DNA of 64,000 bases from the NCBI RefSeq assembly GCF_900890425.1, contig NZ_CAAHFG010000003.1:992001-1056000 (forward strand), read 5' to 3'. Source of the DNA: Pontiella desulfatans (lineage in GTDB: Bacteria; Verrucomicrobiota; Kiritimatiellia; Kiritimatiellales; Pontiellaceae). Shown here piece after piece: positions 31,050 to 52,279 of this stretch. The position numbers and the translations under genes are program-made. The first letter of the stretch is position 1. Each line of letters opens with the position of its first letter. The notes beneath the pieces are model-generated. The model worked only from the letters and a program-made list of their open reading frames with translations. It ran no database searches and had not been told where the DNA came from.

Positions 31050-33479
31050 ATGAAAACATGGATGATGATGGCGATACTATCGCTGGGTGCTTCAGCTCTG
31101 GCTGAGCGCAGTACGATCAATTTTAATGAAGATTGGCGATTTGCCCGTTTCGGGGCCATGCCGGATGGTTCGGAAAGGGCAGAACCTGAGGGGTTGGAAA
31201 GCGCATCGCTCGATGATTCTCAATGGCGGTCACTGAATGTGCCGCATGATTGGGGGATTGAAGGGCCGTTCCGCGATGATCTGCCGAACCGTACCGGTAA
31301 ACTGCCGTGGGCGGGTATTGGCTGGTATCGGAAAACGGTGGATGCACCGGTCTCTGATGCCGGGAAAAAAATCTTTATCGATTTTGACGGAGCCATGTCT
31401 GATTCGAAGGTGTGGCTGAATGGCGAATATGTGGGGGAATGGCCCTATGGCTATTCTTCCTTCCGCCTCGACCTTTCCAATCATTGGAAACCCGGCGAAA
31501 AGAATACGATTGCCGTTCGGCTCGACAATAAACCGGAATCTTCGCGCTGGTATCCGGGAGGCGGGATCTATCGCAATGTCCGCCTTGTGAAAACCGAGCC
31601 GGTGCACGTGGATCATTGGGGCATTTTTGTAACGACGCCGGATGTTTCGAAAAAAGAAGCAACTATTTCGATTAAAACCGAGGTGGCGGGGGCAGATGAC
31701 CATACCATTATTCTTCAAGAAATTGTAGAAGCCGGCGTGCAGGGAGAAGGGGCTCATCTTCAAATCAAGGTGGCCAATCCCAAATTATGGAGTCTGGAAT
31801 CGCCAACGCTGTATACGTTAAAAACCACCGTTAAACAAAATGGGATCGTGGTGGATGTGGTTGAAACCTCATTCGGAATTCGTACCATTGAATATACGTC
31901 GGAAGGTTTTTTCCTGAACGGAAAAAAGGTGCGTATGAACGGGGTTTGTCAGCATCATGACTTAGGGCCACTGGGATCTGCGATCAACACACGTGCGATT
32001 GAACGGCAGATTGAGATTCTTCAGGAGATGGGGGTGAACGCCATTCGTACCGCCCATAACCCGCCGGCACCCGAGCTTTTGGATTTGTGCGACCGCATGG
32101 GCATTCTGGTTCAGGTGGAAGCATTTGACTGCTGGGAAAAGAGCAAAGCACCCAACGATTATGCCCGCCACTTTCCGGAATGGCATGAGAAGGATCTGCG
32201 CGCGATGATTAAGCGCGATCGGAACCATGCTTCCGTGGTGATGTGGAGTACCGGAAATGAAACCCGGGAAATGAAGAAAAAGGAAGATGCCCCGGTGTCG
32301 CAGATGTTAACGGATATTGCAAAGTCGGAGGACAGCACCCGTCCAATTACGTATGGCTGTAATGCCCCCAATGCCGGATGGAACGGCTTCCAGAAAACGA
32401 CGGATCTTTTCGGGTATAACTACAAACCGCATCTTTATCAGAAGTTCCGGAACGTGAATCCCATGCAACCGTTCTATGGCAGCGAAACCGCTTCGACGGT
32501 CAGCTCCCGTGGGGAATACTTTTTCCCGGTATCCGATGAAAAACATCTGGGACAGGGCGGTGATTTTCAGGTGAGTTCCTACGACCTGACTGCACCGCCG
32601 TGGGCTAACAATCCTGATATTGAATTTGCGGCGCAGGATAAATACCCGTGGGTATTCGGCGAGTTTGTCTGGACCGGGTTTGACTATATTGGAGAACCAA
32701 CACCGTATAATCAGGATAAAACCAATCTGCTGAATTTTTCTGATCCGGCAGAACGGAAACGCATGGAGGAAGAGCTGGAGCGTCTGGGCGGTAATATTCC
32801 ACCGCGCAGTTCCTATTTCGGCATTGTGGATCTGTGTGGATTTAAGAAAGACCGCTTCTATATCTATCAGGCCCGCTGGCGACCGGAGCTACCCATGGCG
32901 CATATTCTTCCGCATTGGAACTGGCCGGAGCGTATCGGCGAAGTTACGCCGGTGCATGTCTATACATCGGGCGATGAAGCGGAACTGTTTTTGAATGGAA
33001 AATCGCTCGGACGGAAGAGGAAGGGCGAATTTGAATACCGCCTGCGCTGGGATGATGTGGTGTATGAACCCGGCGAAGTGAAGGTGGTTGCGTATAAGGA
33101 TGGAAAAATCTGGGCTGAGGATCTTCAGAAAACCACCGGCAATTCAGCGAAACTGGAACTGGTAGCCGATCGGTCGGAAATCGCGGCGGACGGGCAGGAT
33201 CTTTCGTTTATAACGGTCCGCGTGGTGGATGCTGAAGGGCTCGTCGTTCCGCGTTCTCATAATTCAGTACAATTTAAAATTGAAGGCCCGGGCGAAATTA
33301 TTGCCGTGGGCAATGGCGATCCAACGAGCCATGAGTCGTTCCATGCTCTGGAACGCAGGGTCTTTAATGGTTTGGCACTGGTGGTCGTTCGTTCCGTGAA
33401 GGGCGAAAGCGGTTCGGTGGTGGTGAAGGCTGACTCGGACGGGTTGGCTGCAGGAGAGATTGAAATCGAGGTAAAATGA
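31050..33479 (+). CDS. GH2 beta-galactosidase-like enzyme
   Basis: 809 residues with a signal peptide (KTWMMMAILSLGASALA). GH2 layout: sugar-binding jelly roll (NEDWRF, VPHDWGIEGPF, GWYRK, DGAMSDSKVWLNG), Ig-like domain, and a barrel with acid/base Glu in MWSTGNE and nucleophile Glu in VFGEFVWTGFDY. Two Ig-like C-terminal domains follow, including an invasin/DUF4982-like piece (AELFLNGKSLGRK). The expected role is exo-hydrolysis of beta-linked galactose, or another beta-glycoside, in the periplasm. First gene of an operon; its last bases (ATGA) overlap the next start. Confidence 0.9.
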   Translation: MKTWMMMAILSLGASALAERSTINFNEDWRFARFGAMPDGSERAEPEGLESASLDDSQWRSLNVPHDWGIEGPFRDDLPNRTGKLPWAGIGWYRKTVDAPVSDAGKKIFIDFDGAMSDSKVWLNGEYVGEWPYGYSSFRLDLSNHWKPGEKNTIAVRLDNKPESSRWYPGGGIYRNVRLVKTEPVHVDHWGIFVTTPDVSKKEATISIKTEVAGADDHTIILQEIVEAGVQGEGAHLQIKVANPKLWSLESPTLYTLKTTVKQNGIVVDVVETSFGIRTIEYTSEGFFLNGKKVRMNGVCQHHDLGPLGSAINTRAIERQIEILQEMGVNAIRTAHNPPAPELLDLCDRMGILVQVEAFDCWEKSKAPNDYARHFPEWHEKDLRAMIKRDRNHASVVMWSTGNETREMKKKEDAPVSQMLTDIAKSEDSTRPITYGCNAPNAGWNGFQKTTDLFGYNYKPHLYQKFRNVNPMQPFYGSETASTVSSRGEYFFPVSDEKHLGQGGDFQVSSYDLTAPPWANNPDIEFAAQDKYPWVFGEFVWTGFDYIGEPTPYNQDKTNLLNFSDPAERKRMEEELERLGGNIPPRSSYFGIVDLCGFKKDRFYIYQARWRPELPMAHILPHWNWPERIGEVTPVHVYTSGDEAELFLNGKSLGRKRKGEFEYRLRWDDVVYEPGEVKVVAYKDGKIWAEDLQKTTGNSAKLELVADRSEIAADGQDLSFITVRVVDAEGLVVPRSHNSVQFKIEGPGEIIAVGNGDPTSHESFHALERRVFNGLALVVVRSVKGESGSVVVKADSDGLAAGEIEIEVK

Positions 33480-35356
33480 TGAAGTGGATAGTAACCTGTA
33501 TTTTAATGACCGCAGTTGCGGTTCAGGCGGAAGAACCGTGGCGTTTTCTGCTGTTGGCGGATTGGCATTCTGCGGAAAAATATACGCAACTTGAAAAAGA
33601 GACGGATTGGCTGGAGGAAGCCATTGCGGAAGATGTCGCGGTCGTCCGCATGCTGAAGGAGAATTATGGCGGGGAGCTGATTCTGATGCCGGGGGACAGC
33701 AACGGCGGGCATTGGGATACGCCGAATTTTATCAAAAATAATTTTCCCGGTGCGATGCCGGAAGAGTCGGTGCTCGAAGCCGGACGGTTATGTTATTCGG
33801 GTATGATTGTTTCATTCCGCAAAGGCGGATATTCCAAGCTGATCATGGCCGTGGGCGATCATGAAGTGGGGGATAATCCCTGGCCGCCCGGATCGGATGT
33901 TTCGCGCTGCCAGCCGCAGTTCCGTGAATCGTTTGCCAAAGAGTTTAACCGCAATCCCGATGGAGGACGGTTTCTCTATGAAAAACCGATCGGCCAGGCG
34001 GCTTCCCGACCGCTGGGCACGAAGTATGAAGAAACGTCCTATGCGTACCGTCATAAAAATATTCTCTTTATCACCCTCGATGCATTTCACCAGGAAGATC
34101 CGGATAAAAGCATTGGGCCGGAAGGTTCGGTGACCGGAACGATTACCGGCCCGCACCTCCAATGGTTGGAAGAGGTGCTGAGCGAAGCGCGCAAGGATGC
34201 AGGCATTAAACACATTCTGGTGCAGTCACATCTGCCGGTGATCTATCCGGTGCGCAAGGTAAACAGCAGCGGCATGCTGATGGACGACGATATCCGGAGC
34301 CCGTTCTGGCAGCTGCTCCGCAAATACAAGGTGGACATCTATTTTGCCGGAGAGGTTCATGCCAACACCGTGACCAAGGATCCGGGGTCGGATGTGATTC
34401 AATTGGTGAGCCGCGGTAATTTTTTCAATAATTTCCAGACGCTGGATATTTCGGACGATCGGATCGAAGTCATCTGTTATAACCAGCTGGGCGCGAAACC
34501 ACAGGATGGCGACTATGAAGTTTCCGGCCGCCTGGTGATTGATAAATCCGGCGGTGTCCCCGTTTTTGAAAGCGATGGTGAGTTGGCGGTGCTGAATCCT
34601 GGTGATCGGCTGTATCATTTTGATTTCGAAGAAAAACTTCCGCTGGCGGAAAATCCGATCATGGGAACCGTGGGCCGGAAAAAGGAAGATCCGTTTAAAC
34701 TGCGCGGCGTTACCTGTTCCGACATTTTTCCTAACCTCGGAAGTTTCGGGCCTCATTACAGCGGTCTGACCGATGGCGTGGAGCAGGTGCCGGGTATGAT
34801 TGGAAAAGGCGGGCGGTTTACGGGCGACAGCCGGATGGGCGTTTTTGCGATGGGTCCGCTTCATGGAACGCATGCTGTTTCGTATGCCCTGTGGCTGAAA
34901 ACCACCGCAGCGGAAAAACAGATGCTGATCAACACGGGTTCCATCTGGAGCAAGGAGTTGAAAAACTTTATCAACCTGAACCTGAATGACGGCGTGCCGG
35001 AAGCAATGATTTCGGATCGGCAGTGGCTGTCGGCCAAAGGCGTTAAGCTGAACGATGGGAAGTGGCATCATGTGGCCATGAGCATGCCCGGCAATGGCTG
35101 CAAACTGTCTGAAGTGCAGCTTTTTGTGGATGGAAAACCGGTTAAGACCGAGCTTACCGGAAAAGATGCCCATCTGTTCTTTAATCAGGCGGTTCGCCTG
35201 GGTATCGGCGGGTTGAACTACAGCAATAAAGGCTTCGATAAATTGCCGGTAAAACCGTTTGTCGGCGAGCTGGATGAAGTCTCGGTCTGGGCACGCAGTC
35301 TTTCCGCAGATGAAGTGAAGCGGGCGATGAAACTGAAAGCAGGGCAGGAACTATGA
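33476..35356 (+). CDS. Metallophosphoesterase-LamG protein
   Basis: 626 residues with a signal peptide. Residues about 20-350 show the calcineurin-like metal ligands in order: LLADWHS, MPGDSNG, VGDHEVGD (in place of GNHE), QSHLPV and GEVHA. Residues about 390-620 are a LamG/concanavalin-type jelly roll (TTAAEKQML, KWHHVAMSM, GELDEVSVWARSL). The reaction should be hydrolysis of a phosphate ester or a related bond; purple acid phosphatase-like relatives occur in glycan loci. It shares a 4-bp ATGA overlap with the genes on both sides, so it is translated as part of the sulfatase operon. A phosphate on the glycan, or another ester, are possible targets; neither is shown. Confidence 0.8.
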   Translation: MMKWIVTCILMTAVAVQAEEPWRFLLLADWHSAEKYTQLEKETDWLEEAIAEDVAVVRMLKENYGGELILMPGDSNGGHWDTPNFIKNNFPGAMPEESVLEAGRLCYSGMIVSFRKGGYSKLIMAVGDHEVGDNPWPPGSDVSRCQPQFRESFAKEFNRNPDGGRFLYEKPIGQAASRPLGTKYEETSYAYRHKNILFITLDAFHQEDPDKSIGPEGSVTGTITGPHLQWLEEVLSEARKDAGIKHILVQSHLPVIYPVRKVNSSGMLMDDDIRSPFWQLLRKYKVDIYFAGEVHANTVTKDPGSDVIQLVSRGNFFNNFQTLDISDDRIEVICYNQLGAKPQDGDYEVSGRLVIDKSGGVPVFESDGELAVLNPGDRLYHFDFEEKLPLAENPIMGTVGRKKEDPFKLRGVTCSDIFPNLGSFGPHYSGLTDGVEQVPGMIGKGGRFTGDSRMGVFAMGPLHGTHAVSYALWLKTTAAEKQMLINTGSIWSKELKNFINLNLNDGVPEAMISDRQWLSAKGVKLNDGKWHHVAMSMPGNGCKLSEVQLFVDGKPVKTELTGKDAHLFFNQAVRLGIGGLNYSNKGFDKLPVKPFVGELDEVSVWARSLSADEVKRAMKLKAGQEL

Positions 35357-37224
35357 AGCGCCGGAATTTTAACCGACTGATCAGTGCCGCGGGCCTTGCT
35401 GCCATGGGGCAGCATACGCTGGCCGGAAAAGCGAAGCAGCCGAACCTGCTGATTATTCATACGGATGAGCATAATTTCCGAACACTGGGATGCTACCGGG
35501 ATCTGATGACGGATGATCAGTCCTATGTCTGGGGTAAAGGGGTGAAAGTAGAAACGCCGCACCTGGATTCGCTGGCGCGGGATGGTGCCATTGCAACGAG
35601 TTATTATGCGGCCTCGCCGGTCTGTACCCCTTCTCGGGCATCGATTATTTCCGGGCTGTATCCGGTGCATACGGGCTCTCCGGTAAACGATATGCCGCTG
35701 AATGATGACCTCGTTACCTTTGCGGAAGTGCTGAAGCGGAACGGCTATGCCACGTCATACGTCGGAAAGTGGCATCTGGATGGCGATGCCAAGCCCGGTT
35801 TTGCCCCGGCACGGAAATTCGGATGGGACGATAACCGTTATATGATTAATCGCGGGCATTGGAAGATGCTGGAAAAAGACGGGAATACCGCAAAATTTGT
35901 CGGCTCGTTTAATGAAAAAAATAATCAGTACAAATTTGATATCAACGATGCGGATGAATTGTCATTTACAACCGATTTTCTGTGTGACCGCACCCTGGAG
36001 ATTATTGAACGGGATAAAACGAAACCGTTTTGTGTGATGGTTTCGATTCCCGATCCGCACGGGCCCAACCATGTGCGGAAACCGTACGATACGATGTTTG
36101 CGGATATGCATTTTGAGAATCCGCACACGATGGATGCCTCGACAGAAGAGACGGTTCCGGGCTGGAGTTCAATTAAAGGAAAAAACTCGGCGGAAAAAGG
36201 CCTCAAGCAGGAGCAGATGCAGTGGTATTTCGGGATGGTGAAGTGCATCGACGACAATGTGGGCCGTATTCTGAACTACCTGGAATCGCAGGGGCTGGCT
36301 GATAATACGATTGTCGTCTTTACGTCCGACCACGGCGATCTGATGGGCGAACACAAAAAACATAACAAAGGCGTTCCTTTTGAAGCGTCGGCAAAGATTC
36401 CATTCCTGATTCGCTGGCCGGGTCATATTCCGTCCGGGAAAGTGGTGCGGTCAGCGCAGAGTAATATTGATTTTGCCCCGATGGCGCTTTCGATGACGGG
36501 CGTGAAAACCGGCTGGCCGGACTTTCATGGTCGCGATACCTCGGGCGATTATTTGAGCCCTGAAAAAGACGTTGGCGATGATCGTGTGGTGTACATCACC
36601 AATGCGGGCAGCCGATGGGTGGCGGCGGTGAATCGGCGCTATAAGCTCGTTCTTTCGCCGAGCGATGATCCGTGGTTGTTTGATTTGAAAAAGGATCCGG
36701 ACGAACTCATCAATTTTTATACGCATCCGGAATACAAAGAAATCGCTGAAAAAATGCAGGCCGAGCTGATGGCGCAAATGGAACGGTATGCCGAACCGGC
36801 ACTGGCCAACGGTAACCTGATTTATGAAACCGGCGGTTCTGCTCCACAGCAGGAAAATAAGGCCCTTTCTTCAAGTGAAGGTTATGTGGTCGACAGCGGT
36901 CCGCATGCGGTGAAGGGCGAGCCGGGGCAGTGGGCGCGGGCGATTACCGTTCCGGGCGGAACCTTTGAAGCGAATACCGCGTATGAGCTGGCAGTGGAGT
37001 GGGAGTCGAAAGGCCTCGATGCCGGAGCCGCTTTTTTTGCCAATTTTCTCGATCCGAAAAACAAGAAAGCTAAGCAGACGGAAACCTGGACGGCGGTTGT
37101 CGGAGAAACCGGAACATTGAAGGCCGTACTTAAGACCTCGGGTTCCAAGGGTTGGACATTACACGTTGGTGTTCGCGATGGCGGAGAACTGTTGGTGAAA
37201 CGAATTAAAATCAAGAAGAAGTGA
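35353..37224 (+). CDS. S1 sulfatase with Tat-like leader and C-terminal jelly roll
   Basis: 623 residues. The leader KRRNFNRLISAAGLAAMG has adjacent arginines followed by Asn-Phe, a Tat-like pattern; the other sulfatases here have plain Sec leaders. LLIIHTDEHNFRTLG carries the metal ligands and CTPSR (Cys91) the formylglycine site; VGKWHLDGD and FTSDHGDLMGEH follow. The form resembles choline-sulfatase/heparan-type sulfatases. After about residue 485 comes an extra beta-rich domain of ~135 residues (WARAITVPGGTFE, GGELLVKRIKIKKK) that could bind glycan. It shares a 4-bp overlap with the phosphoesterase upstream. Confidence 0.9.
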   Translation: MKRRNFNRLISAAGLAAMGQHTLAGKAKQPNLLIIHTDEHNFRTLGCYRDLMTDDQSYVWGKGVKVETPHLDSLARDGAIATSYYAASPVCTPSRASIISGLYPVHTGSPVNDMPLNDDLVTFAEVLKRNGYATSYVGKWHLDGDAKPGFAPARKFGWDDNRYMINRGHWKMLEKDGNTAKFVGSFNEKNNQYKFDINDADELSFTTDFLCDRTLEIIERDKTKPFCVMVSIPDPHGPNHVRKPYDTMFADMHFENPHTMDASTEETVPGWSSIKGKNSAEKGLKQEQMQWYFGMVKCIDDNVGRILNYLESQGLADNTIVVFTSDHGDLMGEHKKHNKGVPFEASAKIPFLIRWPGHIPSGKVVRSAQSNIDFAPMALSMTGVKTGWPDFHGRDTSGDYLSPEKDVGDDRVVYITNAGSRWVAAVNRRYKLVLSPSDDPWLFDLKKDPDELINFYTHPEYKEIAEKMQAELMAQMERYAEPALANGNLIYETGGSAPQQENKALSSSEGYVVDSGPHAVKGEPGQWARAITVPGGTFEANTAYELAVEWESKGLDAGAAFFANFLDPKNKKAKQTETWTAVVGETGTLKAVLKTSGSKGWTLHVGVRDGGELLVKRIKIKKK

Positions 37225-37232
37225 GCTCTGGT

Positions 37233-38834
37233 ATGAAAACAATACTTTTTGGAATGCTGATGATGGTGGCTGTGGCAGGTGCTGTTGCGGACAAGCCCAA
37301 TTTGATCGTGATTATGTGTGATGATCTGGGCTATGCGGATGTGGGGTTTAATGGATGCACGGATATTCCGACGCCCAATATAGACCGTATTGCGGATAAC
37401 GGGGTTCGCTGTACCAGCGGCTATGCGCCGTATTCTGTCTGCGGACCGAGCCGGGCCGGGTTTATTACCGGCCGTTATGGCCAGCGTTTCGGATTTGAGC
37501 GAAATCCACAGCATCGCGTGGATGATCCGAATATGGGGGTTCCGCTTTCGGAACGGATGTTTTCCGAAGTGCTTAAACCCGTTGGATACACCTCCGGTAT
37601 TGTGGGGAAGTGGCATCTGGGAGCGCACGAAACGCTGCATCCGCTCGCGCGCGATTTTGACTACTTCTATGGTCATCTCGGTGGAGGCCACCGCTTTTTC
37701 CCGGAAGACCTGACAATTGAAGGGCATGGGAAAAATGAAGAAGAGAGTTACCGGACCAAGATTCTGCACAATCACGAAATGGTGGAGACGAGTAAATATC
37801 TTACCGATGAATTTTCTGATGCCGCAGTTGAATTTATTGGTCAGAGCAAAGAGCAACCGTTTTTCCTGTTTCTCTCCTATAACGCACCGCATCTTCCATT
37901 GCAGGCGTCGGACGAGTATTTAGATCGTTTTCCGACTCTTGAAGGTAAACGGAAAGTTTATGCGGCCATGGTGAGTGCGGTGGATGATGGAGTCGGGCAG
38001 GTTTTCCAGAAGTTGGAAGAGCTGAATCTGATGGAAGATACCATTATCTTTTTCCTGTCCGACAACGGGGGCCCTGAACCGAAAAATGCTTCGGATAACG
38101 GGCCGTTGCGCGGGAGCAAAGGTGATTCATGGGAAGGCGGTTTCCGGGTGCCGTATGCGGTGCAGTGGAAAGGCGTGCTTCCAGAGGGCGTTGATTATGA
38201 TCACCCGGTGAGTTCGCTCGATATTCTTGCAACGATTACGGAGCTGTCCGGCGCATCAGAGGATCCGGCGCGTCCGTTGGACGGGGTGAATCTCATTCCT
38301 TATCTGACCGGCAAGAAGAGCGGTGCGCCGCATCAGGCGATTTACCTGCGCAAATTTGACGGTCAGAAATATACGGTCCGGAGCGGAGATTATAAACTGC
38401 ATACCCAATGGCATGGAGATGCGCCACGGCTCTATAACCTGAAAGATGATATCGGGGAGGAGCGTGATGTGGCCAACCAGAATCCGGAAAAGGTCCAGCA
38501 GTTGCAGCAACTCCGTGCGCAGTGGGATGCGGAGCTGATCGAGCCGGCCTTTCTCGGCCTGATTCATACGCCGGAGTGGCAGGCCAAGATTAAGAAAAAT
38601 CAGCAGTCATCAAAAAAGAAAGGGACATCTTCCTGGGACTGGTTTGCCGCGCTCGATCTGAATAAAGACAATGGAGTCACATTAGAGGAATGGATGGATT
38701 GGGGCGCGTTAAATGCGAAACGCAAGGGCGAGTCCTACAATGAATCGCGGCAAAAGGAATATTTCCTGGGGCGCGATGAAAACGGGAATGGCATCATTTC
38801 GCGTGAAGAACTAATAGCCAAAGCGGGGAAATAA
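37233..38834 (+). CDS. S1 sulfatase with C-terminal EF-hand pair
   Basis: 533 residues from ATG 37233, which starts a clear signal peptide; an in-frame GTG at 37221 overlaps the previous stop (GTGA) and is a real alternative. Metal motif VIMCDDLGYADVG, formylglycine motif CGPSR (Cys70), VGKWHLGAHE, LSDNGGPEP and WEGGFRVPYA are all present. The last ~75 residues hold two EF-hand-like calcium loops (DLNKDNGVTLEE and DENGNGIISREE) separated by a short helix. The sulfatase at 40270 has a homologous tail. The tail may act in calcium-dependent stability, docking or surface attachment. Confidence 0.9.
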   Translation: MKTILFGMLMMVAVAGAVADKPNLIVIMCDDLGYADVGFNGCTDIPTPNIDRIADNGVRCTSGYAPYSVCGPSRAGFITGRYGQRFGFERNPQHRVDDPNMGVPLSERMFSEVLKPVGYTSGIVGKWHLGAHETLHPLARDFDYFYGHLGGGHRFFPEDLTIEGHGKNEEESYRTKILHNHEMVETSKYLTDEFSDAAVEFIGQSKEQPFFLFLSYNAPHLPLQASDEYLDRFPTLEGKRKVYAAMVSAVDDGVGQVFQKLEELNLMEDTIIFFLSDNGGPEPKNASDNGPLRGSKGDSWEGGFRVPYAVQWKGVLPEGVDYDHPVSSLDILATITELSGASEDPARPLDGVNLIPYLTGKKSGAPHQAIYLRKFDGQKYTVRSGDYKLHTQWHGDAPRLYNLKDDIGEERDVANQNPEKVQQLQQLRAQWDAELIEPAFLGLIHTPEWQAKIKKNQQSSKKKGTSSWDWFAALDLNKDNGVTLEEWMDWGALNAKRKGESYNESRQKEYFLGRDENGNGIISREELIAKAGK

Positions 38835-38835
38835 T

Positions 38836-40266
38836 ATGAAAGCGATTTTGATTTTACTATTCTCCTGCAGCATCACTGTGGTCCTGGCCTCGGAGCGACC
38901 GAATATTCTCTTCATTGCCATCGATGATATGAATGACTGGACTGGGTTTCTCGGCGGCCATCCGCAGGCGCAAACCCCGAGTATGGATCGTCTGGCGAAG
39001 AAGGGGGTGAATTTCACGAATGCGCACTGTTCAGCTCCGGGATGTTCTCCAAGCCGGAATGCCTTGCTCTATGGCGCGGAGCCGTTTAATTCCGGGCTGT
39101 ATGCTTTTTATGATCAGGAAGGTTTTTCCAACGAAGTGCTGGAGGGCTATACGTCGTTGCCGGAGCTGTTCAAAAACAATGGGTACAACACCTATGGATC
39201 GGGAAAGATTCACCATCGTCGTGAACCTACGGATGCAGAATGGACAGAATTTCATGAGCCGCCGAAAACCAATCCGCTGAAGTTTGATGATGTTGAAGGG
39301 TATATTCAGGGTAAGAAAGGTAAGATGCGGTTTTCCCCTACGCTGAACCCTCTTGAAGATCATACGGATTATAAGAATACTTCGTTCGGTGTGGATGTGC
39401 TGAGTCGTGAACATGAACAACCGTTCTTCCTGGCCGTGGGCATTGTTCGTCCCCACCTGCCTTTCACGGCGCCGAAACAGTTTTTCGATCTGTATCCCAT
39501 GGAGGTGGAGCCCCCGCGAATCAACCCGACCGACCATTCGGATATTCCAAAGGTTGGAAAGGCCATGGCGAAAGTGGGGGATGATAATAAATTCAAAAAG
39601 GATAAGGCCTGGAATAAAGTGCGCAGAGCCTATCTGGCGTGTGTCTCCTGGGCCGATTTCAATGTGGGTCGTCTGATCGATGCGCTGGAAGAAAGTCCTT
39701 ATGCGGATAACACCGTGGTGGTTCTATGGTCGGATCATGGCTATGGCATGGGCGAGAAAAAACACTTCCGTAAATTTGCCCTGTGGGAAGAGACCACCCG
39801 GGTGCCGTTCATCTTCTGGGATGCCCGTGAAAAGAAAGCGGTTGCGGGCAGGGAAGTGCAGGATGGTGTTTCGCTGATTAACGTCTACCGCACACTGGCG
39901 GAAATTTCCGACCTGGACGTGCCTGAAAAAGCCGATGGGTTCAGTCTGGTTCCTCAGCTGAAGGATCCATCCGCGCCCGTCGAGGGTCAGGCCATTTGCA
40001 CCTGGGGCAGGGGAAACTATACCGTGCGAACCCGCGACTGGCGCTATACCCGTTACTATGATGGCGGCGAAGAGTTATATGATCATACCAAAGACCCCGA
40101 TGAATGGACCAATCTGGCCAATAACCCGGAATATGCCGATGTGAAGACCAGACTTTCCGCCAAACTTCCACAACAGGAAGTGCCGATTATTATGGAGGGC
40201 CTCGAGGGGTGGAGCATTCCATACAGCGCCGACAAAAAACTAGAACCGAAAAACAAAGGAAACTAA
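38836..40266 (+). CDS. S1 sulfatase, iduronate-2-sulfatase-like
   Basis: 476 residues with a signal peptide (KAILILLFSCSITVVLA). FIAIDDMNDWTGFLGG holds the metal ligands, CSPSR (Cys70) the formylglycine site; YGSGKIHHR, GIVRPHLPF, WSDHGYGMGEKKH and YTRYYDGGEELYDH follow. It resembles the sulfatases at 62944 and 18569 more than its operon neighbours. Only one base separates it from the previous stop. It lacks the EF-hand tail of the genes on either side. Confidence 0.92.
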   Translation: MKAILILLFSCSITVVLASERPNILFIAIDDMNDWTGFLGGHPQAQTPSMDRLAKKGVNFTNAHCSAPGCSPSRNALLYGAEPFNSGLYAFYDQEGFSNEVLEGYTSLPELFKNNGYNTYGSGKIHHRREPTDAEWTEFHEPPKTNPLKFDDVEGYIQGKKGKMRFSPTLNPLEDHTDYKNTSFGVDVLSREHEQPFFLAVGIVRPHLPFTAPKQFFDLYPMEVEPPRINPTDHSDIPKVGKAMAKVGDDNKFKKDKAWNKVRRAYLACVSWADFNVGRLIDALEESPYADNTVVVLWSDHGYGMGEKKHFRKFALWEETTRVPFIFWDAREKKAVAGREVQDGVSLINVYRTLAEISDLDVPEKADGFSLVPQLKDPSAPVEGQAICTWGRGNYTVRTRDWRYTRYYDGGEELYDHTKDPDEWTNLANNPEYADVKTRLSAKLPQQEVPIIMEGLEGWSIPYSADKKLEPKNKGN

Positions 40267-40269
40267 TTG

Positions 40270-42096
40270 ATGATGAATAAGTCATTAAAAGCCATGGTCC
40301 TGGGGGGGCTGGTTGGCGTGGTGTCCGCAGCGGAACGGCCGAATGTGGTTCTCATTGTCTGTGATGATCTTAATGATTATATCACCGGGATTCAGGGGCA
40401 GGCGGGGCATCCGCAAACCCTCACACCCCATATGGAAAAACTGGCTTCTTCCGGTGTGGCGTTCAGGAGAGCCTATTCAAACCATCCAGTCTGTGCACCA
40501 TCCCGTTCGAGTTTTCTTACCGGTATTTATGGCCATACATCCGGCAATCTTTTCTGGAATAAATGGTTTCAGAATCCAGTACTGAAGAACTCCCGCAGTC
40601 TGATGGATCATTTTAAGCAGAACGGCTATCACGTGGTCGGTTCCGGCAAAATGATGCATCATGGAAAGCCCGATGAGTGGAGCGAGTTCAAGTATAAAGC
40701 CGACTATGGCCCGATGGCGTATGACGGTGAAAAACGGGTGGCCCATCCGGGCGTGCCGAAGCCGTTCTGGGATATCGGTTCTGTCGATGGATCCTGGGGG
40801 GCGCTTGAAGATATTCCTTATGCGGACGAGGACAAACCGGGATCCGGCTGGATCTATGGGGACTGGAGTAAACTGAAAAGGTTTAATCCTGAAACCGATC
40901 TGACTCCCGATGAAATGAATGCAGAGTGGGCGGTGAATCAGATTGAATCATTTTCAAAACAGGATGGAGACCAGCCATTCTTTCTAGGCGTAGGTTTTAT
41001 CCGTCCGCACACTCCGCTGCATGTGGCGAAAAAATATTTTGAAATGTTCCCGCTGGATGAACTTGAGATGCCGCTGATTAAGGATGGCGATGCGGACGAT
41101 ACGCACTATCGTGAAATTTTCGATCCCGGGCATAAGGGCCTACGCTATTACAAGACCCTGATGGACTCCTATGATGGGGATAAGGAACGGGCCATTAAAA
41201 CCTTTACCCAGGCATATCTAGCCTGTGTAGCCGCTGTTGATGAGTGTATTGGTGACGTTGTTGAGGCCATTGATAACAGTCCATACAAGGACAACACCAT
41301 TATTGTCGTTACTTCTGATCATGGTTGGCAGATGGGGCAGAAGGATTATCTATTTAAAAACTCTCCCTGGGAGGAAAGCTGTCGAGTGCCGTTGGTTGTA
41401 CGTGCGCCGGGTGTGGCAAAAGCCGGACGAGTTGCAGAGCATCCGGTTTCGCTGATCGATCTTTACCCGACCCTCGTAGATCTCTGCGGCCTTCCGAAAG
41501 AAACCCGCAAAAATAAAAACGGGGCTCCATTGGATGGATATAGTGTTCGTCCGTTCCTGGAAAATCCCCAGAGTCGTACCTGGGAGGGACCGGAAGGGGC
41601 GCTTTCCATGATTTATGTCGGCGAGCTGAACAAAGGGTTCTCCTCAGAAGATAAAAATATGCTCAAAAATCAGCACTGGAGCTACCGCACCGAACGTTGG
41701 CGCTATATCCGCTACTTTGATGGGGTTGAAGAGCTCTATGATCATGAAAGCGATCCGCGTGAATGGACCAACCTGGCCGGTTCGCCGGAACATGCTGCGA
41801 TCAAGAAAAAACTACATCAGCAGATACTGGAAATCACCGGCCCGCTTGACCGAAAAACACCGACTCAGCAGACCGTTTCATCAAAACCGAAAAAGAAATG
41901 GAACTGGTTCGGCACATTGGATACCAATAAAGATGGCATAGTCACCGAAGGCGAATGGCTGACCTGGAACAAAAAGTCTGCCGTTAAAAAAGGCGATTCC
42001 TTCAACGAAGCCAAACAGAAAGAATACTTCGCTGCACGCGATGCAAATGGCGATGGTCAATTGACCCGTAAAGAGCTGGAAGAGAGCCTGAAATAG
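40270..42096 (+). CDS. S1 sulfatase with C-terminal EF-hand pair
   Basis: 608 residues; AAAGGAA lies at a good distance before ATG 40270 (a TTG three bases earlier is less likely). Signal peptide, then VLIVCDDLNDYITG, formylglycine motif CAPSR (Cys75), GSGKMMHHG, GFIRPHTPLH and TSDHGWQMGQKDY. The C-terminal ~70 residues begin with KKKWNWFGTLDTNKDGIVTE and include a second loop DANGDGQLTRKE, an EF-hand pair homologous to that of the sulfatase at 37233. It is the last gene of the six-gene operon; a terminator lies 150 bp downstream. Confidence 0.92.
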   Translation: MMNKSLKAMVLGGLVGVVSAAERPNVVLIVCDDLNDYITGIQGQAGHPQTLTPHMEKLASSGVAFRRAYSNHPVCAPSRSSFLTGIYGHTSGNLFWNKWFQNPVLKNSRSLMDHFKQNGYHVVGSGKMMHHGKPDEWSEFKYKADYGPMAYDGEKRVAHPGVPKPFWDIGSVDGSWGALEDIPYADEDKPGSGWIYGDWSKLKRFNPETDLTPDEMNAEWAVNQIESFSKQDGDQPFFLGVGFIRPHTPLHVAKKYFEMFPLDELEMPLIKDGDADDTHYREIFDPGHKGLRYYKTLMDSYDGDKERAIKTFTQAYLACVAAVDECIGDVVEAIDNSPYKDNTIIVVTSDHGWQMGQKDYLFKNSPWEESCRVPLVVRAPGVAKAGRVAEHPVSLIDLYPTLVDLCGLPKETRKNKNGAPLDGYSVRPFLENPQSRTWEGPEGALSMIYVGELNKGFSSEDKNMLKNQHWSYRTERWRYIRYFDGVEELYDHESDPREWTNLAGSPEHAAIKKKLHQQILEITGPLDRKTPTQQTVSSKPKKKWNWFGTLDTNKDGIVTEGEWLTWNKKSAVKKGDSFNEAKQKEYFAARDANGDGQLTRKELEESLK

Positions 42097-42673: not shown

Positions 42674-43519
42674 TCATGTTCTGACTGCTCCTTCCATGAA
42701 TACCTCGGCGGGGGTGCGTTTGTCCAGAGCGCTGTGCTTCCTCTCGTGGTTGTAATATTTAAAATAGCTGTCAAGGCCCCGATGCAACGCATGCCCGTCG
42801 GCATAGCATGCGGGATAGATTTTCTCATACTTCACCGACCACCACAGTCGTTCGATGAATACGTTGTCCAACGCCCGGCCTCGCCCGTCCATGCTGATGG
42901 TGATGTTCTCGTTTAACAGGACACCGGTGAAGGCGTTCGAGGTGAACTGGCTTCCTTGGTCGGTGTTGAATATCTCCGGATTCCCCTGCGTCAGCGCACG
43001 CTCCAGCGCATCAACGCAGAACGTGCTCTCCATGGTGCTTGAGAGCTCCCAGGCGAGCACATAGCGGCTGTACCAGTCGATTACGGCGGTCAGGTACATG
43101 TATCCATGCCGCATCGGGATGTAGGTGATGTCCGTACTCCAAACCTGGTTCACCCGTTCGATGTCCACATTGCGCAGCAAATAAGGGTAGATCTTGTGCC
43201 TCGGGGCGGGCTTGCTCGTGTGCGGACCGGGCGTGATGGCCTGAATCCCCATCAGCTGCATGAGGCGGGCGACCCGCTTGTGATTGACATCATAGTCTTG
43301 ATCACGCAACCAGTCCGTCATGCGTGGATAGCCGAACTCCGGATGCCGGAGATACTGCTCGTCGATCAAACGCATCAGAAGCAGGTTCTCCGGCGTTTCC
43401 GGGGCGGGGTCGTAGTAGAAGCCCGATCTGGGGACGCCTGCGAGCCTACACTGCCGCCGAACCGAATAATCGGTGCCGGGCTCCACCCAGCTGCGGCGCG
43501 TTGAAAGCGGCAGGCTCAT
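42674..43519 (-). CDS. IS3-family transposase, OrfB (DDE integrase core)
   Basis: About 281 residues from the ATG at 43519. HTH_21-like N-terminus (RRQCRLAGVPRSGFYY), then the integrase core with DDE residues in WSTDITYIPM, FNTDQGSQFTS and FIERLWWSVKYE. It is normally made as an OrfAB fusion by -1 slippage on the A7 run near 43525; the same frame continues upstream in overlap with orfA. The fusion is the active transposase that moves the element by copy-out/paste-in. Confidence 0.92.
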   Translation of the reverse strand: MSLPLSTRRSWVEPGTDYSVRRQCRLAGVPRSGFYYDPAPETPENLLLMRLIDEQYLRHPEFGYPRMTDWLRDQDYDVNHKRVARLMQLMGIQAITPGPHTSKPAPRHKIYPYLLRNVDIERVNQVWSTDITYIPMRHGYMYLTAVIDWYSRYVLAWELSSTMESTFCVDALERALTQGNPEIFNTDQGSQFTSNAFTGVLLNENITISMDGRGRALDNVFIERLWWSVKYEKIYPACYADGHALHRGLDSYFKYYNHERKHSALDKRTPAEVFMEGAVRT

Positions 43520-43800
43520 AGCTTTTTTTCGAGCCACTTCACGTCCATCTTCAGACGCCCGATCTCTTCGTAAAGTGGAGCCGTAAGCTCTTCTTCCGTT
43601 TGAGCCTGCTTCTTTTTCCCCGATGCAAAAAGATCCGGCGCATTCGAAAGCAACTGCTTCTTCCAATCCGAAATCTGGTTCGGATGGACCTGATATTCCG
43701 ATGCCAGCTCCGCCAATGTCTTCACGCCCTTGATGGCCTCAATCGCCACCTTGGCCTTGAACTTGTCCGTGAATGTTCTTCGTTTTCTTCCCATTTCCAT
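43516..43800 (-). CDS. IS3-family transposase, OrfA (helix-turn-helix)
   Basis: 94 residues: an HTH of the transposase_8 type (KRRTFTDKFKAKVAIEAI, ELASEYQVHPNQISDWKKQ) followed by a leucine-zipper-like C-terminus ending WLEKKL. It binds the terminal repeats and, alone, usually acts as a regulator. Its stop overlaps the orfB start (ATGA), and the A7 slippery sequence lies directly upstream. Confidence 0.92.
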   Translation of the reverse strand: MEMGRKRRTFTDKFKAKVAIEAIKGVKTLAELASEYQVHPNQISDWKKQLLSNAPDLFASGKKKQAQTEEELTAPLYEEIGRLKMDVKWLEKKL

Positions 43801-44235: not shown

Positions 44236-45156
44236 CTACTGCCATTGGCCCGAGGACGCCCATGTTGAAGAAAACGGCTCGCCGGATAGTTGGGCTTCTA
44301 CCATTGGACGGAAGAAACCGTGAAGAATACGGATTACTTCTCGAAAGCTGGCTGGAGCGATGTCCTCAAGTTCCTGCTTGCGGACAAAGGCGGCCCATTG
44401 TTCTTCTTTCCCGAATGATTCCGGGAATTCTTCTAAAAAGAAACGAGGGTTCAGGTCGAGCGGGGTTTCGCGCTGTTCAAAGGTGGCAACACAGGCTTTT
44501 TGCAGTTCTTCTCCGGCAATTTCCTCATGCTGGATGATATTCCAGACATCGTAAAAATCTTTCATGCGGCTGTTGAGCTCGCCCAGTTTGATCATCGCCT
44601 CAAATTTTTCGGCGATTACGGTCAGTTGGTGATAGCACCGCAGTTCCGGAGCAGGGAAGTCCAGCAGGGTGGGTACGGTTGCCTCAATAGCACCGGGAAC
44701 CAACGCATCGCCGAATCCGATGTCGATTTGTATTGGAATGCGACTTTGCCCGATAAATGCAAACCCCCGAATCCGGACGCCTTCATAGTCGGCATCTTCT
44801 TTAATCCGTTCCGCCCGAATGTTGTCGCTGTCAAATTCGATACCGTCCCCTTCAACATGGGTCTTGCAAATCTCTTGGACGATGGCTGTCAGGTTGTCCA
44901 GCGAGTTTTCCGTGAAGCCGAGCAGATCGATGTCTTTGGTGCTGCGCCGGCCATAGTCCGGTTCCCAGACCATGAAAAGAAGGGCGCCTTTCAGGACGAA
45001 ATTTTCCGAATGCTCCGATTTTGAAAGCCGGTAAAGAAAGCGCTCCATGGCATAGCGGGAAAGCAGACGGTTGAAGTTTTCTCCATGCTCTTTTGCATAA
45101 TTGCGCAGGCGTTGGAAAACGGAGTGAGCAAGGTTGCTGGGAGTGGGGTTGCTCAT
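44236..45156 (-). CDS. AbiEii-type nucleotidyltransferase toxin
   Basis: 306 residues. Nucleotidyltransferase signature FVLKGALLF followed by STKDIDLLG, then FPAPELRCY and EKFEAMIKLGELNSRMKDFYDVW, all typical of the AbiEii/AbiGii toxin family. Members transfer nucleotides to cellular targets and arrest growth, in some cases giving phage resistance (type IV toxin-antitoxin). Its start overlaps the antitoxin gene stop by 4 bp. The pair sits next to an IS element, between two parts of the polysaccharide locus, consistent with acquisition by transfer. Confidence 0.9.
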   Translation of the reverse strand: MSNPTPSNLAHSVFQRLRNYAKEHGENFNRLLSRYAMERFLYRLSKSEHSENFVLKGALLFMVWEPDYGRRSTKDIDLLGFTENSLDNLTAIVQEICKTHVEGDGIEFDSDNIRAERIKEDADYEGVRIRGFAFIGQSRIPIQIDIGFGDALVPGAIEATVPTLLDFPAPELRCYHQLTVIAEKFEAMIKLGELNSRMKDFYDVWNIIQHEEIAGEELQKACVATFEQRETPLDLNPRFFLEEFPESFGKEEQWAAFVRKQELEDIAPASFREVIRILHGFFRPMVEAQLSGEPFSSTWASSGQWQ

Positions 45157-45746
45157 ACAATGGCCTCCATGTAAGGGCGCATTACATTATACATACGGCA
45201 GGCTTTTGCGGCTTCGACCAGTTCATCGGCAGTGGCTTTTCGATCCCTCCAGACTTCTTTAAGAGCTTCGAGGGCTACATCCATGCCGATTTTGTTGCGG
45301 AATTTAAAACAATCCGCGACGGTTTTTGCCGGACTGTAGACCTTTAGAGGTACCCCGTTTTCAATATGTTCCTGTATGCCGAACGAGTAGGCGGTTCCTG
45401 TGACATAGGTGAGATTAAGCGGGTATTCGACGGTCGGCTTCCATGTGCTTTTGGGAACACTGATCCAGATGACATGTGGGCTTTGGGTTCCGATGTTGTG
45501 AAAGGACAGGGCCGACAGCAGACAGAATACGGCGCTGGGAATGCGCTTGGCGACTTCTTGCAGTTCGTAGTTCTGGGTGATTGGCGCATCGGTGCGTGCA
45601 TACAGCCCCCTTGATCGTCTTTCAAGCTGGCCGGATTTACACAGCATTGAAAGGTAAGCACGCGGGATTCCGACGGCCTCTACATCACGCGGACGGATAA
45701 TTCCCCTCTGGTCTGCCAGTTTCAGTATCTGTTCTGTTCGCTTCAT
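45153..45746 (-). CDS. AbiEi-type antitoxin/transcriptional regulator
   Basis: About 197 residues from the ATG at 45746 (an in-frame ATG 51 bases earlier is less likely). The N-terminal winged helix (QILKLADQRGIIRPRD, RAYLSMLCKSGQLERRSRG) matches the AbiEi_4 antitoxin domain, followed by a C-terminal domain (YSPAKTVADCFKFRNKIG, ALEALKEVW). AbiEi antitoxins repress their own promoter and counteract the nucleotidyltransferase without a stable complex. Translation is coupled to the toxin by a 4-bp overlap. Confidence 0.9.
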   Translation of the reverse strand: MKRTEQILKLADQRGIIRPRDVEAVGIPRAYLSMLCKSGQLERRSRGLYARTDAPITQNYELQEVAKRIPSAVFCLLSALSFHNIGTQSPHVIWISVPKSTWKPTVEYPLNLTYVTGTAYSFGIQEHIENGVPLKVYSPAKTVADCFKFRNKIGMDVALEALKEVWRDRKATADELVEAAKACRMYNVMRPYMEAIV

Positions 45747-46070
45747 TATGATTTTCCGTTTCCAAGGTATATAATCACAAGTAACTTGGATTAGCAAACA
45801 TTGGTTTTGCTTAAATTTAAGTGATGATGACGGCCGCGGTTGAGATCGTTATGGAGTACTATTTCAAACCCCAGCGCGCCCAGTTAAAACAAGCCCTCCA
45901 ACGCAACATGCCCAGCATGCTTACGTTCGGGGTAGCCCCGCCCGCAGAAGCCGCCGCCGTATTGCGAACTGCCATTTCAAAAAACTGGAAAGCGACAATA
46001 GAAAAGCATTGAAGCTTTTGGAAGGGGTGTCGGATCAATAATGGTTTTCAGTGACTCTCGGATTTGAGCT

Positions 46071-50089: not shown

Positions 50090-52279
50090 ATGATGAGGAA
50101 AACAGGTTATATTTTGATTGCTTCGGTTTTAATGGCTGGGCTGGCTTCGGCGCAGATCTGGTCGGAAGATTTTGATCCGGCTCCGGTGCTGAATGAAGAT
50201 GGATTCGGTGAGATCACCAATGAGTGGTCGACCGGGCAATGGATTCATACCAAGGCTTCGAATGTCTCAAATGTTGTGGAAGGTGTGACCAACCTGGTTC
50301 TCCAGTTAAGAAGCGATGGTGGATCCAATGTGGGTGATACCGAGGGGGCCGGCATTTCATTGGATGGCAGCCTGTTCTCTTCCGCCGGCACCTACGCCGT
50401 TGAAGTCGCGGTTCTTTCGGATTCGAACAGTGTCGGGGCATTGGGCGTAAGTATTTATGATGCCGATATCGGTTCCGGCGGAACCAATAGCTACCGGCTG
50501 GATACGAAAATGAATTTGAAGAATGTCTGGCTCGATGTGAATGCTGTCGGTGATGCCTCGGCCACGCTGCTGACTCAGGCCAAGCTCGTTGCCGGCACCA
50601 CCAATCAGGTTGTCTTTTCCTATGACGGCAGTGGCGATGTGGTTCTGATGCTGGGGGCCATGCAACGCTGGGTTGACGTCCAGAGTCTTCTTAAAATTGA
50701 TGATATCAGCGTGGATGTGGCAGCCGCCAACAATGCACCGGTCTTTTCCGCCGATTCTATCACCAATCTGGCGGCGGGAGCGGAGGGGGCGGCCTACAGC
50801 GACACCATTGCCGGCACGGCGACGGATGTCGATCCGGATACAATTTCCTATTACAAGGTTTTCGGCCCAGACTGGCTGGTTGTTGCCTCCGACGGCTCCC
50901 TTTCGGGAACTCCGCCTAACGGAGCAGATGGACTTAACCGGTTCGAAATCTGGGTGACCGATGGAAATGGCGGCTACGACGGCGTCGATCTCGAAATCAC
51001 CGTGACTGATACCCTGAACAATCCCCCGGTATTCACTTCAGATCCGATTTTAAAGAAGTTTGCCTTCGTCGACCTGGCCTACAGCGAATCGATGAGTGTG
51101 GACGTCTTCGACAACCAGGGTGACCCGATCACCTTCGCCAAGGTGGGTTATACGGGTTTCGGGGCGGACTGGCTGCAGATCAGTACAAATGGCACGCTGA
51201 CCGGTACGCCCACAGGTGAAAATTTGGGGGCGGCCGAGTGGCAGGTGGAGATCAGCGACGGCTTGCTGGCGAGCACCGGCACACTGTCCATTACCGTGAA
51301 TCCGCCTGCAATATGGTCGGAGAATTTCGAGACGGCGTCTCTGACCGATGCGGGGGCCGATGGTATTGCCTATGTACCTACCGATGTTACGACGAATGAA
51401 TGGATCGGTGCCGACGGCAATGGTGCCGATATCATTGATTCAGGAACCTCAATGGAACTGAAGGTGTATTCCCGTAACCAGGCCGATGACCGGAACCGGG
51501 GCGCCGCAATTGCGCTTGGAGCAGACGAGTTCTCGGATGGAGCAGGCGATTATTTACTGAATTTCGACTATACATTCCGGAATCAGGGAAGCTTGGTCAT
51601 TAAGATTTGGGAAACATCCGCGAATAGTGGAAGTTACGGCATGCAGGTGGAAGACACTACTACTGCTCCGGCGGACGGGTCGAATTTCGTGGTCGTGCCG
51701 ACCGGCGATGCGGTCACGAATCTGCTCGTGACCCAGACCTATGGAGCGGGTGACGACGGTAAGAACCACACCATCGATTTCTCTTATGGAGGAATTGGCG
51801 ATGTGGTCATCCAGATCTATTCCACCGGTAAATCCCGAACGCAGCGCGTCGATAACCTGGGCGTGTTCTTCGCTGAAGATCTGGCCAATCCATATGCAGT
51901 ATGGGCCTCCTCTTATGAATTGGTTTACGGGCCGGAGGGCGACGATGATGAAGATGGTCTGAGCAATCTCTATGAATATGGTCTGGGTCTTGATCCGACC
52001 AATACGGTCGACCCCAATGCCGTTGCGGATGGTGCGTTGCCGACTTTTGGAAATGGTTCCGGAGGTATGGAATACATCCATGCACAGCGCACGGATGACA
52101 GTTCCCTGACATACTACCTGGAGCTCGACGGTGATCTTGTCAATGCGCCGGGTTGGACCAATGTCGGCTACACCGTAACAGGCACCAACATAACGGGGGG
52201 CACATTTGATTATGTTACGAATGCCATCCCGACGACTGACGCCCAGAAGTTCATTAGACTGGTTGTTGAGCAGCAGTAG
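50090..52279 (+). CDS. Secreted jelly-roll/cadherin-like repeat protein
   Basis: 729 residues behind AAGGAGG, with a signal peptide (TGYILIASVLMAGLASA). Two related jelly-roll modules at about 22-212 (IWSEDFD, YDADIGSGGTNSYR) and 406-600 (IWSENFE, VIKIWE) flank two cadherin-like/CADG repeats (about 213-400; NNAPVFSADS, GSLSGTP, NNPPVFTSDP, GTLTGTP). The C-terminus has the Asp-rich segment (YGPEGDDDEDGLSNLYEYG) and the common tail (FIRLVVEQQ). No catalytic residues are evident, so the role is probably adhesion to, or binding of, polysaccharide. The next gene encodes a PEP-CTERM protein with a related jelly roll. Confidence 0.78.
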   Translation: MMRKTGYILIASVLMAGLASAQIWSEDFDPAPVLNEDGFGEITNEWSTGQWIHTKASNVSNVVEGVTNLVLQLRSDGGSNVGDTEGAGISLDGSLFSSAGTYAVEVAVLSDSNSVGALGVSIYDADIGSGGTNSYRLDTKMNLKNVWLDVNAVGDASATLLTQAKLVAGTTNQVVFSYDGSGDVVLMLGAMQRWVDVQSLLKIDDISVDVAAANNAPVFSADSITNLAAGAEGAAYSDTIAGTATDVDPDTISYYKVFGPDWLVVASDGSLSGTPPNGADGLNRFEIWVTDGNGGYDGVDLEITVTDTLNNPPVFTSDPILKKFAFVDLAYSESMSVDVFDNQGDPITFAKVGYTGFGADWLQISTNGTLTGTPTGENLGAAEWQVEISDGLLASTGTLSITVNPPAIWSENFETASLTDAGADGIAYVPTDVTTNEWIGADGNGADIIDSGTSMELKVYSRNQADDRNRGAAIALGADEFSDGAGDYLLNFDYTFRNQGSLVIKIWETSANSGSYGMQVEDTTTAPADGSNFVVVPTGDAVTNLLVTQTYGAGDDGKNHTIDFSYGGIGDVVIQIYSTGKSRTQRVDNLGVFFAEDLANPYAVWASSYELVYGPEGDDDEDGLSNLYEYGLGLDPTNTVDPNAVADGALPTFGNGSGGMEYIHAQRTDDSSLTYYLELDGDLVNAPGWTNVGYTVTGTNITGGTFDYVTNAIPTTDAQKFIRLVVEQQ

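Follow-up and report, generated by a model that had tools for sequence, protein, structure and literature searches.

Two sulfatases of one gene cluster in Pontiella desulfatans, here called A and B, end in homologous tails of about 70 residues that each carry a pair of EF-hand loops. The cluster lies in a window of 64,000 nucleotides, by which we mean the whole stretch of DNA analysed (contig NZ_CAAHFG010000003.1, positions 992,001 to 1,056,000 of the forward strand), and the host genome spans 8.66 Mb in six contigs; the published description of P. desulfatans F1 gives 8.6 Mbp and 521 sulfatases (PMC7356697). Sequence comparisons support the view that the EF-hand-pair tail is a portable module, present in only part of three sulfatase families, those of A, B and a third sulfatase, C, and it resembles a tag that can be exchanged between enzymes more than a piece that belongs to them. 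As to its role, we tentatively read the tail as an EF-hand pair that forms a module by itself, is permanently loaded with calcium and serves as a docking tag at the end of a flexible linker, a reading that may well hold but that we would stop short of calling probable.

Sulfatases A and B carry homologous C-terminal EF-hand pairs

The genes of the cluster lie on the + strand in the order phosphoesterase, sulfatase P0004, sulfatase A, sulfatase P0002, sulfatase B, and the translated lengths of A, P0002 and B are 533, 476 and 608 residues. The features from A to B are as follows.

37233..38834, + strand: sulfatase A, with an S1_19-like catalytic domain, the CxPSR motif, an apparent Sec signal peptide and a C-terminal EF-hand pair (translation; PF00884, expectation value (E) 8.6e-54)
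38616..38831, + strand: tail of A, residues 462-533 (72 residues), two EF-hands
38655..38690, + strand: EF loop 1 of A, DLNKDNGVTLEE, residues 475-486 (strict loop pattern)
38775..38810, + strand: EF loop 2 of A, DENGNGIISREE, residues 515-526 (strict loop pattern)
38836..40266, + strand: sulfatase P0002, between A and B, tailless (translation, Pfam)
40270..42096, + strand: sulfatase B, with the CxPSR motif, an apparent signal peptide and a C-terminal EF-hand pair (translation; PF00884, E 7e-46)
41848..41895, + strand: linker of B, residues 527-542, predicted to be disordered (predicted local distance difference test score, pLDDT, below 50 in the full-length model)
41884..42093, + strand: tail of B, residues 539-608 (70 residues), two EF-hands
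41920..41955, + strand: EF loop 1 of B, DTNKDGIVTEGE, residues 551-562 (strict loop pattern)
42040..42075, + strand: EF loop 2 of B, DANGDGQLTRKE, residues 591-602 (strict loop pattern)

Both A and B are S1 sulfatases, each combining PF00884 with the C-x-P-S-R maturation motif (VCGPSR in A, VCAPSR in B). Subfamily S1_19 was assigned to A by its best solved relative, the nearest being the exo-4S-kappa-carrageenan sulfatase 6prm and the S1-19 sulfatase 9hh3 (E about 1e-104). The signal peptides of both enzymes, called by eye, suggest that A and B are exported.

The original prediction had described homologous tails with two EF loops each on the sulfatases at 37233 and 40270, and this is borne out: all four loops that it quoted are present, and the tails align without gaps over 65 columns, 33 of which (51%) are identical, as against 24.9% identity between the catalytic parts. 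It had also described the gene between them as free of EF-hands, and P0002 indeed gave no Pfam EF-hand match up to E 0.1. Its further statement that the catalytic halves differ more than the tails holds between families only (24.9% versus 51%); within an orthologous family the relation is reversed, non-synonymous divergence (dN) being higher in the tail than in the catalytic part in all 20 within-family ortholog pairs, by a median of about twofold (ratios of dN to synonymous divergence, dS, were unusable, dS being saturated or nearly so). The tail is constrained, though less than the active domains. At the DNA level, only 131 of 224 aligned columns of the A and B tails are alike, which argues against a recent duplication; there being no clear excess of similarity within the same genome either, recent duplication or gene conversion between the window tails was rejected.

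The strict loop pattern finds exactly two loops in each of A and B, and shuffling produced two such loops 20-45 residues apart in 3 of 20000 cases for each protein. All 14 aligned tails have paired 12-residue loops with calcium ligands at positions 1, 3, 5 and 12 of both loops, the last being Glu or Asp, as is characteristic of EF-hands. Among the Pfam models, EF-hand_5 passes its cut-off (25.9 bits) once per protein, at 26.2 bits in A and 26.9 in B; the EF-hand-pair model EF-hand_7 (PF13499) stays below its threshold (16.0 and 17.4 bits, cut-off 30), and neither protein reaches the cut-off of EF-hand_1.

A model of the A tail built from 14 tails (pLDDT 83.8) predicts four helices in a calmodulin-like arrangement of helix-loop-helix units. 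Its best Foldseek match has E 0.008 and probability 1.00. Calmodulins, together with further proteins of the EF-hand type, make up most of the 50 best fold matches listed, at template modelling (TM) scores of 0.64-0.73 by query length. Compared with solved sequences, the tail profile gave calmodulins as the 60 best matches shown (E about 1e-10). In the full-length model of B (mean pLDDT 69.1), linker residues 527-542 score below 50 while the blocks of the tail score 67-91, so that the tail can be pictured as a bead hanging on a string, a separate module on a predicted flexible linker.

Pair-type tails sit at the C-terminal end in all 14 proteins. Invariant in 14 of 14 are F10 and two tryptophans, W7 and W9 (A3 reference numbering); we regard F10 as a usual core residue and the two tryptophans as additional to the core, and a Lentisphaera tail outside the 14 lacks the first of them. 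The net charge of the tail core ranges from -6 to +5 among relatives, a variation that leaves electrostatic binding by a uniformly basic tail unsupported. Ligand conservation and the predicted fold point to calcium binding by the tail. Seawater contains about 10 mM calcium, which would keep ordinary EF-hands loaded; a calcium switch is therefore unlikely in seawater, and a fixed docking or folding element is likelier.

The tail is present in only part of three sulfatase families

A profile of the two window tails matched 15 places in the P. desulfatans genome at E 0.01. Five of these exceed 90 bits. Two are window A and window B, two form an A/B pair at C1:696-706 kb within a second copy of the cluster, and the fifth is sulfatase C (C3:965-967 kb). 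Among 240 genomes of the class, 14 had a tail match at E 1e-8, and five carried tails above 85 bits, each on one A and one B homolog, namely P. desulfatans itself, what are apparently Pontiellaceae bacterium B12227 (G120), P. sulfatireligans F21 (G154) and the Pontiella metagenome-assembled genome GMC10 (G199), in the last of which both tailed proteins are C-terminal fragments on separate contigs, and a member of another family of the order (G081). Seven of 387 genomes of the phylum matched at E 1e-10; those above 80 bits were P. desulfatans, G120, G081 and G381, apparently Lentisphaera marina, with its tail on group C, and a scan of genome contigs added Pelagicoccus mobilis, again with the tail on group C. 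Tails appear to have persisted across two families of the order.

Searches with the catalytic domains were used so that tailless relatives would also appear; absence of a tail here means no match to the tail profiles, and the listed C-termini were inspected by eye. In a tree of 50 A-family proteins, which covers less than half of 110 catalytic matches (at most seven scored per genome) plus Pelagicoccus from outside that list, five proteins forming one clade have the pair tail, six have another EF tail (five in a second clade with a different tail, one of a third kind) and 39 have none. Twenty of the A relatives were selected because they had a long open frame or an EF match, and tails are over-represented among those; L082, which has no C-terminus, and L085, whose frame ends at 402, were left out. 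A smaller, careful tree supports the pair-tailed clade at 91/84. Besides the pair-tailed clade, an A-family clade present in five genomes of the genus (L199-L203) has its own conserved EF tail, KLKKGDST...GWxWD...DxNGDGIxSGxEKKxYW, the first loop of which is apparently degenerate.

For the B family, 32 of 33 matches were examined, with a pair tail on five, a single-EF tail on 11 and none on 16. Relatives of B at 62-78% identity are among the tailless (L132, L135, L066); in the same genome, those at C1:735802 and C3:1058183 (67% and 62% identity, the latter 2 kb beyond the window) have none. The B tree, from which duplicates and four long tailless fusion proteins (L118, L124, L134, L136) were omitted, supports the pair-tailed clade weakly (52/10). 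The single-EF tail, WKDxYFKKxPxADxNxDGxLxWxEY, occurs on B-like sulfatases at L112, L114-L117, L119, L126, L127 and L191 and, in P. desulfatans, at C1:660-664 kb and C1:714-718 kb, each time on a pair of adjacent sulfatases with 43-44% mutual identity.

Family C has the tail in three bacteria (P. desulfatans, Lentisphaera and Pelagicoccus) and lacks it in four relatives at 50-53% identity; the C search gave six matches, two with a tail (P. desulfatans and, out of frame, G381) and the four without, Pelagicoccus coming from the separate scan. In Lentisphaera marina (L071, about 10000-10200), the tail of C and the catalytic part are in different frames. The frame changes within a lysine linker rich in A, and the difference may reflect a sequencing error, slippage or decay.

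We compared six clusters: those of the window, L016, L053, L054/L055, L056 and L066. Besides A, P0002 and B, the window cluster contains the following members.

33476..35356, + strand: calcineurin-like phosphoesterase with a laminin-G/lectin-like domain (Pfam; homologs in L016, L055 and L066)
35353..37224, + strand: sulfatase P0004, tailless (translation, Pfam)

The strongest single case for portability is Pelagicoccus mobilis (L066), whose syntenic cluster contains the phosphoesterase and orthologs of P0004, A, B and P0002. Its A (63% identity) and B (78%) are tailless, A ending in a run of lysines where the tail would start, and the tail is found on C, which adjoins B. Orthologs of P0002 and P0004 are tailless in all six clusters, P0004 of L056 being in view with its C-terminal part only.

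Tails of neighbouring proteins tend to resemble each other

In the P. desulfatans genome, the tails of EF-bearing proteins are more similar between neighbours than between distant proteins, also where the catalytic domains are unrelated; this observation is new here, comes from two to four clusters and has counterexamples. The underlying catalogue holds 23 proteins, 20 with related EF-hand tails or pieces and three from a generic EF-hand search (150 of 179 candidates scored); 18 of the 23 have CxPSR. Among the remaining five are an arylsulfotransferase-like protein, an FGE/SMP-30 protein and an alpha-L-fucosidase whose EF piece lies near the N-terminus. EF-hand proteins that gave no clear sign of being such enzymes were left out: small EF-only proteins (L020, L023, L024, L025, L193, L198 and one in L197) and a 528-residue protein in L197 that is sensor-kinase-like by eye. 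A 435-residue protein at C1:1762214 matched no Pfam family at E 1e-3, and the assignment of a hydrolase in L196 was made by eye.

Three sulfatases at C1:2183-2190 kb have like tails on catalytic parts that are 25-29% identical, and two sulfatases and the alpha-L-fucosidase at C2:934-997 kb also share like tails. For pairs with catalytic identity below 40%, tail similarity was 0.449 within 12 kb, compared with 0.182 for other pairs (5 pairs, p 7e-4), and 0.346 versus 0.177 within 65 kb (15 pairs, p 4e-5); without the catalytic filter, the values within 12 kb were 0.423 and 0.193 (8 pairs, p 2e-4). The lowest p values reachable by permutation were 2e-5 and 5e-5. The excess persists at seven distance limits from 5 to 65 kb and after removal of the duplicated cluster and the window pair, with 0.430 versus 0.174 within 12 kb (3 pairs, all from C1:2183-2190 kb) and 0.432 versus 0.166 within 65 kb (7 pairs from three clusters).

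The FGE/SMP-30 protein (L022, C2:755919-758303) combines an FGE (sulfatase-maturation) domain, SMP-30 and several EF-hands, and the arylsulfotransferase-like protein, about 12 kb away, has a like tail. The small stand-alone EF-hand proteins at L020, L023, L024 and L025, exported as judged by eye, match the tail profile weakly; they are possible free partners or competitors of the tails.

Possible roles of the tail

Dockerin-cohesin and outer-membrane Sus-type assemblies organise polysaccharide-degrading enzymes. The tail bears on the question of how the right enzymes stay together on a single substrate in bacteria that encode hundreds of sulfatases. If the tail is a docking tag, calcium outside the cell would keep its loops permanently loaded, and the tag would assemble exported sulfatases that have one polysaccharide as their substrate, either at a common partner or directly with one another. 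Its bearers would be A and B in the clusters of Kiritimatiellia and C alone in that of Pelagicoccus, and the benefit would be a local concentration of consecutive activities; the shared substrate of these enzymes, the existence of a partner and this benefit we infer. We favour docking on account of the flexible linker, the restriction of the tail to chosen members of the cluster, its presence on another member in Pelagicoccus and the joint tailing of A and B. An exchangeable calcium module common to different enzymes of one cluster opens a direct test, and the tail could serve as a compact tag for co-localising enzymes in seawater.

Several observations weigh against docking. Cohesin (PF00963), looked for as a partner, had no match at E 1e-3 in the genome, which is 95% complete. 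Tails of A and B are hardly closer within a genome than across genomes (mean identity 53.3% in 8 pairs versus 51.8% in 28), which gives no indication of adaptation to a genome-specific partner. Pelagicoccus A and B manage without a tail, and the full-length B model on which the linker prediction depends has only moderate overall confidence. The excess of similarity between neighbours comes from two independent clusters at 12 kb (A/B with its duplicate, and C1:2183-2190 kb) and about four at long range, with distance limits and 40% filter chosen post hoc; some entries of the catalogue, moreover, were gathered with profiles that had themselves been made from hits. Some neighbours also differ: the pair-tailed B2 (C1:703685-705619) lies 8.5 kb from single-EF sulfatases with a tail similarity of 0.24, and in P. 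sulfatireligans (L054) about 1.9 kb separates a B with the pair tail from a single-EF sulfatase.

Among the other explanations, the tail might be a partnerless stabilising cap, unfolded at the low calcium of the cytoplasm and folding outside, where it would protect the C-terminus or aid export. Ligands conserved in 14 of 14 tails, the C-terminal position of the module in all 14 pair-type tails and the calcium of seawater, which would keep it loaded, agree with such a cap; but closely related catalytic domains function without the module, one would not expect a general stabiliser on particular members of a cluster only, and the linker, being predicted to be disordered, implies little contact between tail and enzyme, so that we consider a cap somewhat unlikely. 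We find it unlikely, to a greater degree, that the calcium-loaded pair binds an anionic sulfated polysaccharide or the cell's own exopolymer in the manner of a carbohydrate-binding module. The lysine-rich tails, the two tryptophans invariant in 14 of 14 and an EF-bearing set that includes sulfatases, the alpha-L-fucosidase and the arylsulfotransferase-like protein would suit such binding, yet the tail core can be anything from acidic to basic (net charge -6 to +5), no carbohydrate-binding module is among the 50 best fold matches listed, and the Lentisphaera tail lacks the first of the two tryptophans.

The history of the tails could also be largely non-adaptive or weakly adaptive, tails jumping to nearby genes by recombination in lysine-rich linkers with the nearest gene as the usual donor and no common partner involved. 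The likeness of neighbours' tails, the lysine run that ends Pelagicoccus A at the would-be start of a tail and the higher dN of the tail in 20 of 20 pairs (median about twofold) are what such spread would leave behind; that P0002, lying between A and B in the window, is tailless in 6 of 6 clusters, that the ligands are kept in 14 of 14 tails and that tails persist across two families of the order make it an improbable account. Simple inheritance, with both sulfatase subfamilies always tailed, we hold to be very improbable indeed. A tails do track A and B tails track B (mean identity A-A 63%, B-B 62-63%, A-B 52%), which suggests that tails, once acquired, were inherited with their enzyme, and the B sister clade has a single-EF tail, so that some EF tail may be ancestral in B. 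However, an EF tail is absent from 39 of the 50 proteins examined in the A family and from 16 of the 32 examined in the B family, and A and B are 25% identical while their tails are 51% identical; for A, simple inheritance was rejected on the 39 of 50 members without an EF tail. The tail tree did not resolve (0 of 11 inner branches starred), and the second half of the A tail looks slightly nearer to some B and C tails, over 27 residues, too few for a conclusion.

The original prediction had suggested that the tail is a portable module, to be doubted if most members of both subfamilies in unrelated genomes carried it; as the pair tail was seen on 5 of the 50 proteins examined in the A family, on 5 of the 32 examined in the B family and on family C in three bacteria, portability is supported. 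Its interpretation as a whole is partly supported, calcium binding being suggested by sequence and model, and a docking or retention role being a hypothesis.

Going beyond a docking tag for the cluster of A and B, Pontiella and its relatives might use a cohesin-free docking code, in which each cluster for sulfated polysaccharides has EF-hand tags of its own and enzymes from unrelated catalytic families join a complex by acquiring the cluster's tag. We think this doubtful, and slightly more so since no more than two to four clusters, all in a single genome, underlie the neighbour test. If true, the code would be another way to organise polysaccharide-degrading enzymes, in a bacterium with some 500 sulfatases. 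Even if the tail is a mere stabiliser, the repeated gain of EF-hand tails on sulfatases is documented, with three tail types in the A family alone.

Surroundings of the cluster

Directly behind the sulfatase cluster, on the minus strand, are a transposase with an rve integrase core and HTH_21, which we take to be IS3-like, and an AbiEii/AbiEi type IV toxin-antitoxin pair (42674-43666 and 44236-45797, Pfam). Their position suggests a mobile boundary behind the cluster.

Large proteins share another C-terminal domain, unrelated to the tail, which is at most about 130 residues long, contains a DxDxDG-like stretch and in most cases closes with FIRLxVE or a similar sequence. It is found in the window at 7046-11617, 27917-30820, 50090-52279 and 54491-57793, and also in L016, L017, L053, L054 and L059. 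Of 285 C-termini compared, 11, the query included, match that of 50090-52279 at E 1e-3. The domain may serve in sorting or anchoring. One protein that has it (L016 6120-8960) lies between the tailed A and B of the second cluster copy.

Comparison with known systems

EF-hand pairs, S1 sulfatases and bacterial EF-hand proteins are already known. EF-hand tails on sulfatases were not described in the literature searched, which included work on Planctomycetes and Verrucomicrobiota and covered subscription journals little, and the word 'EF-hand' is absent from the accessible parts of the strains' genome papers and of the Pontiella agarivorans paper.

Like type I dockerins, the tail has about 70 residues, contains two calcium loops and is attached to enzymes that degrade glycans. 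Dockerins have Asp at loop position 12, whereas the tail has Glu; neither A nor B matched Dockerin_1 up to E 0.1, and, the genome having no cohesin match, dockerin identity was rejected. The FGE/SMP-30 protein does pass the Dockerin_1 cut-off (24.9 versus 22.9 bits), yet its EF-hand_1 score is far higher (69.5). According to the accessible part of a mucinolysome report of 2026, none of that strain's sulfatases had dockerins (PMC12997984).

Two other candidates were rejected. The XopAW-type calcium-binding protein model (NF041410) scored 20.6 and 25.7 bits against a cut-off of 120, a generic EF-hand resemblance. Lanmodulin-type lanthanide EF-hands have Pro at loop position 2 and Asp at position 9; the 14 tails have Thr, Ser, Ala or Pro at position 9 of either loop, and there is no Pro at position 2.

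The S1_19 carrageenan sulfatases 6prm and 9hh3 share the catalytic domain of A (E about 1e-104), but the matches span only residues 16-450 of A, and these solved relatives therefore show nothing like the tail. Human FKBP22/FKBP14 (4msp), which provides the third and fourth best fold matches, likewise joins an enzyme to a C-terminal EF-hand pair, although it is a eukaryotic isomerase and belongs to no gene cluster. Closest in fold is the calmodulin-type EF-hand pair (Pfam EF-hand_1/5/7), with two canonical 12-residue loops and helix-loop-helix twice; unlike calmodulin, the tail adds, in our reading, two invariant tryptophans before loop 1 (WxWF) and sits on sulfatases via a linker that is predicted to be disordered.

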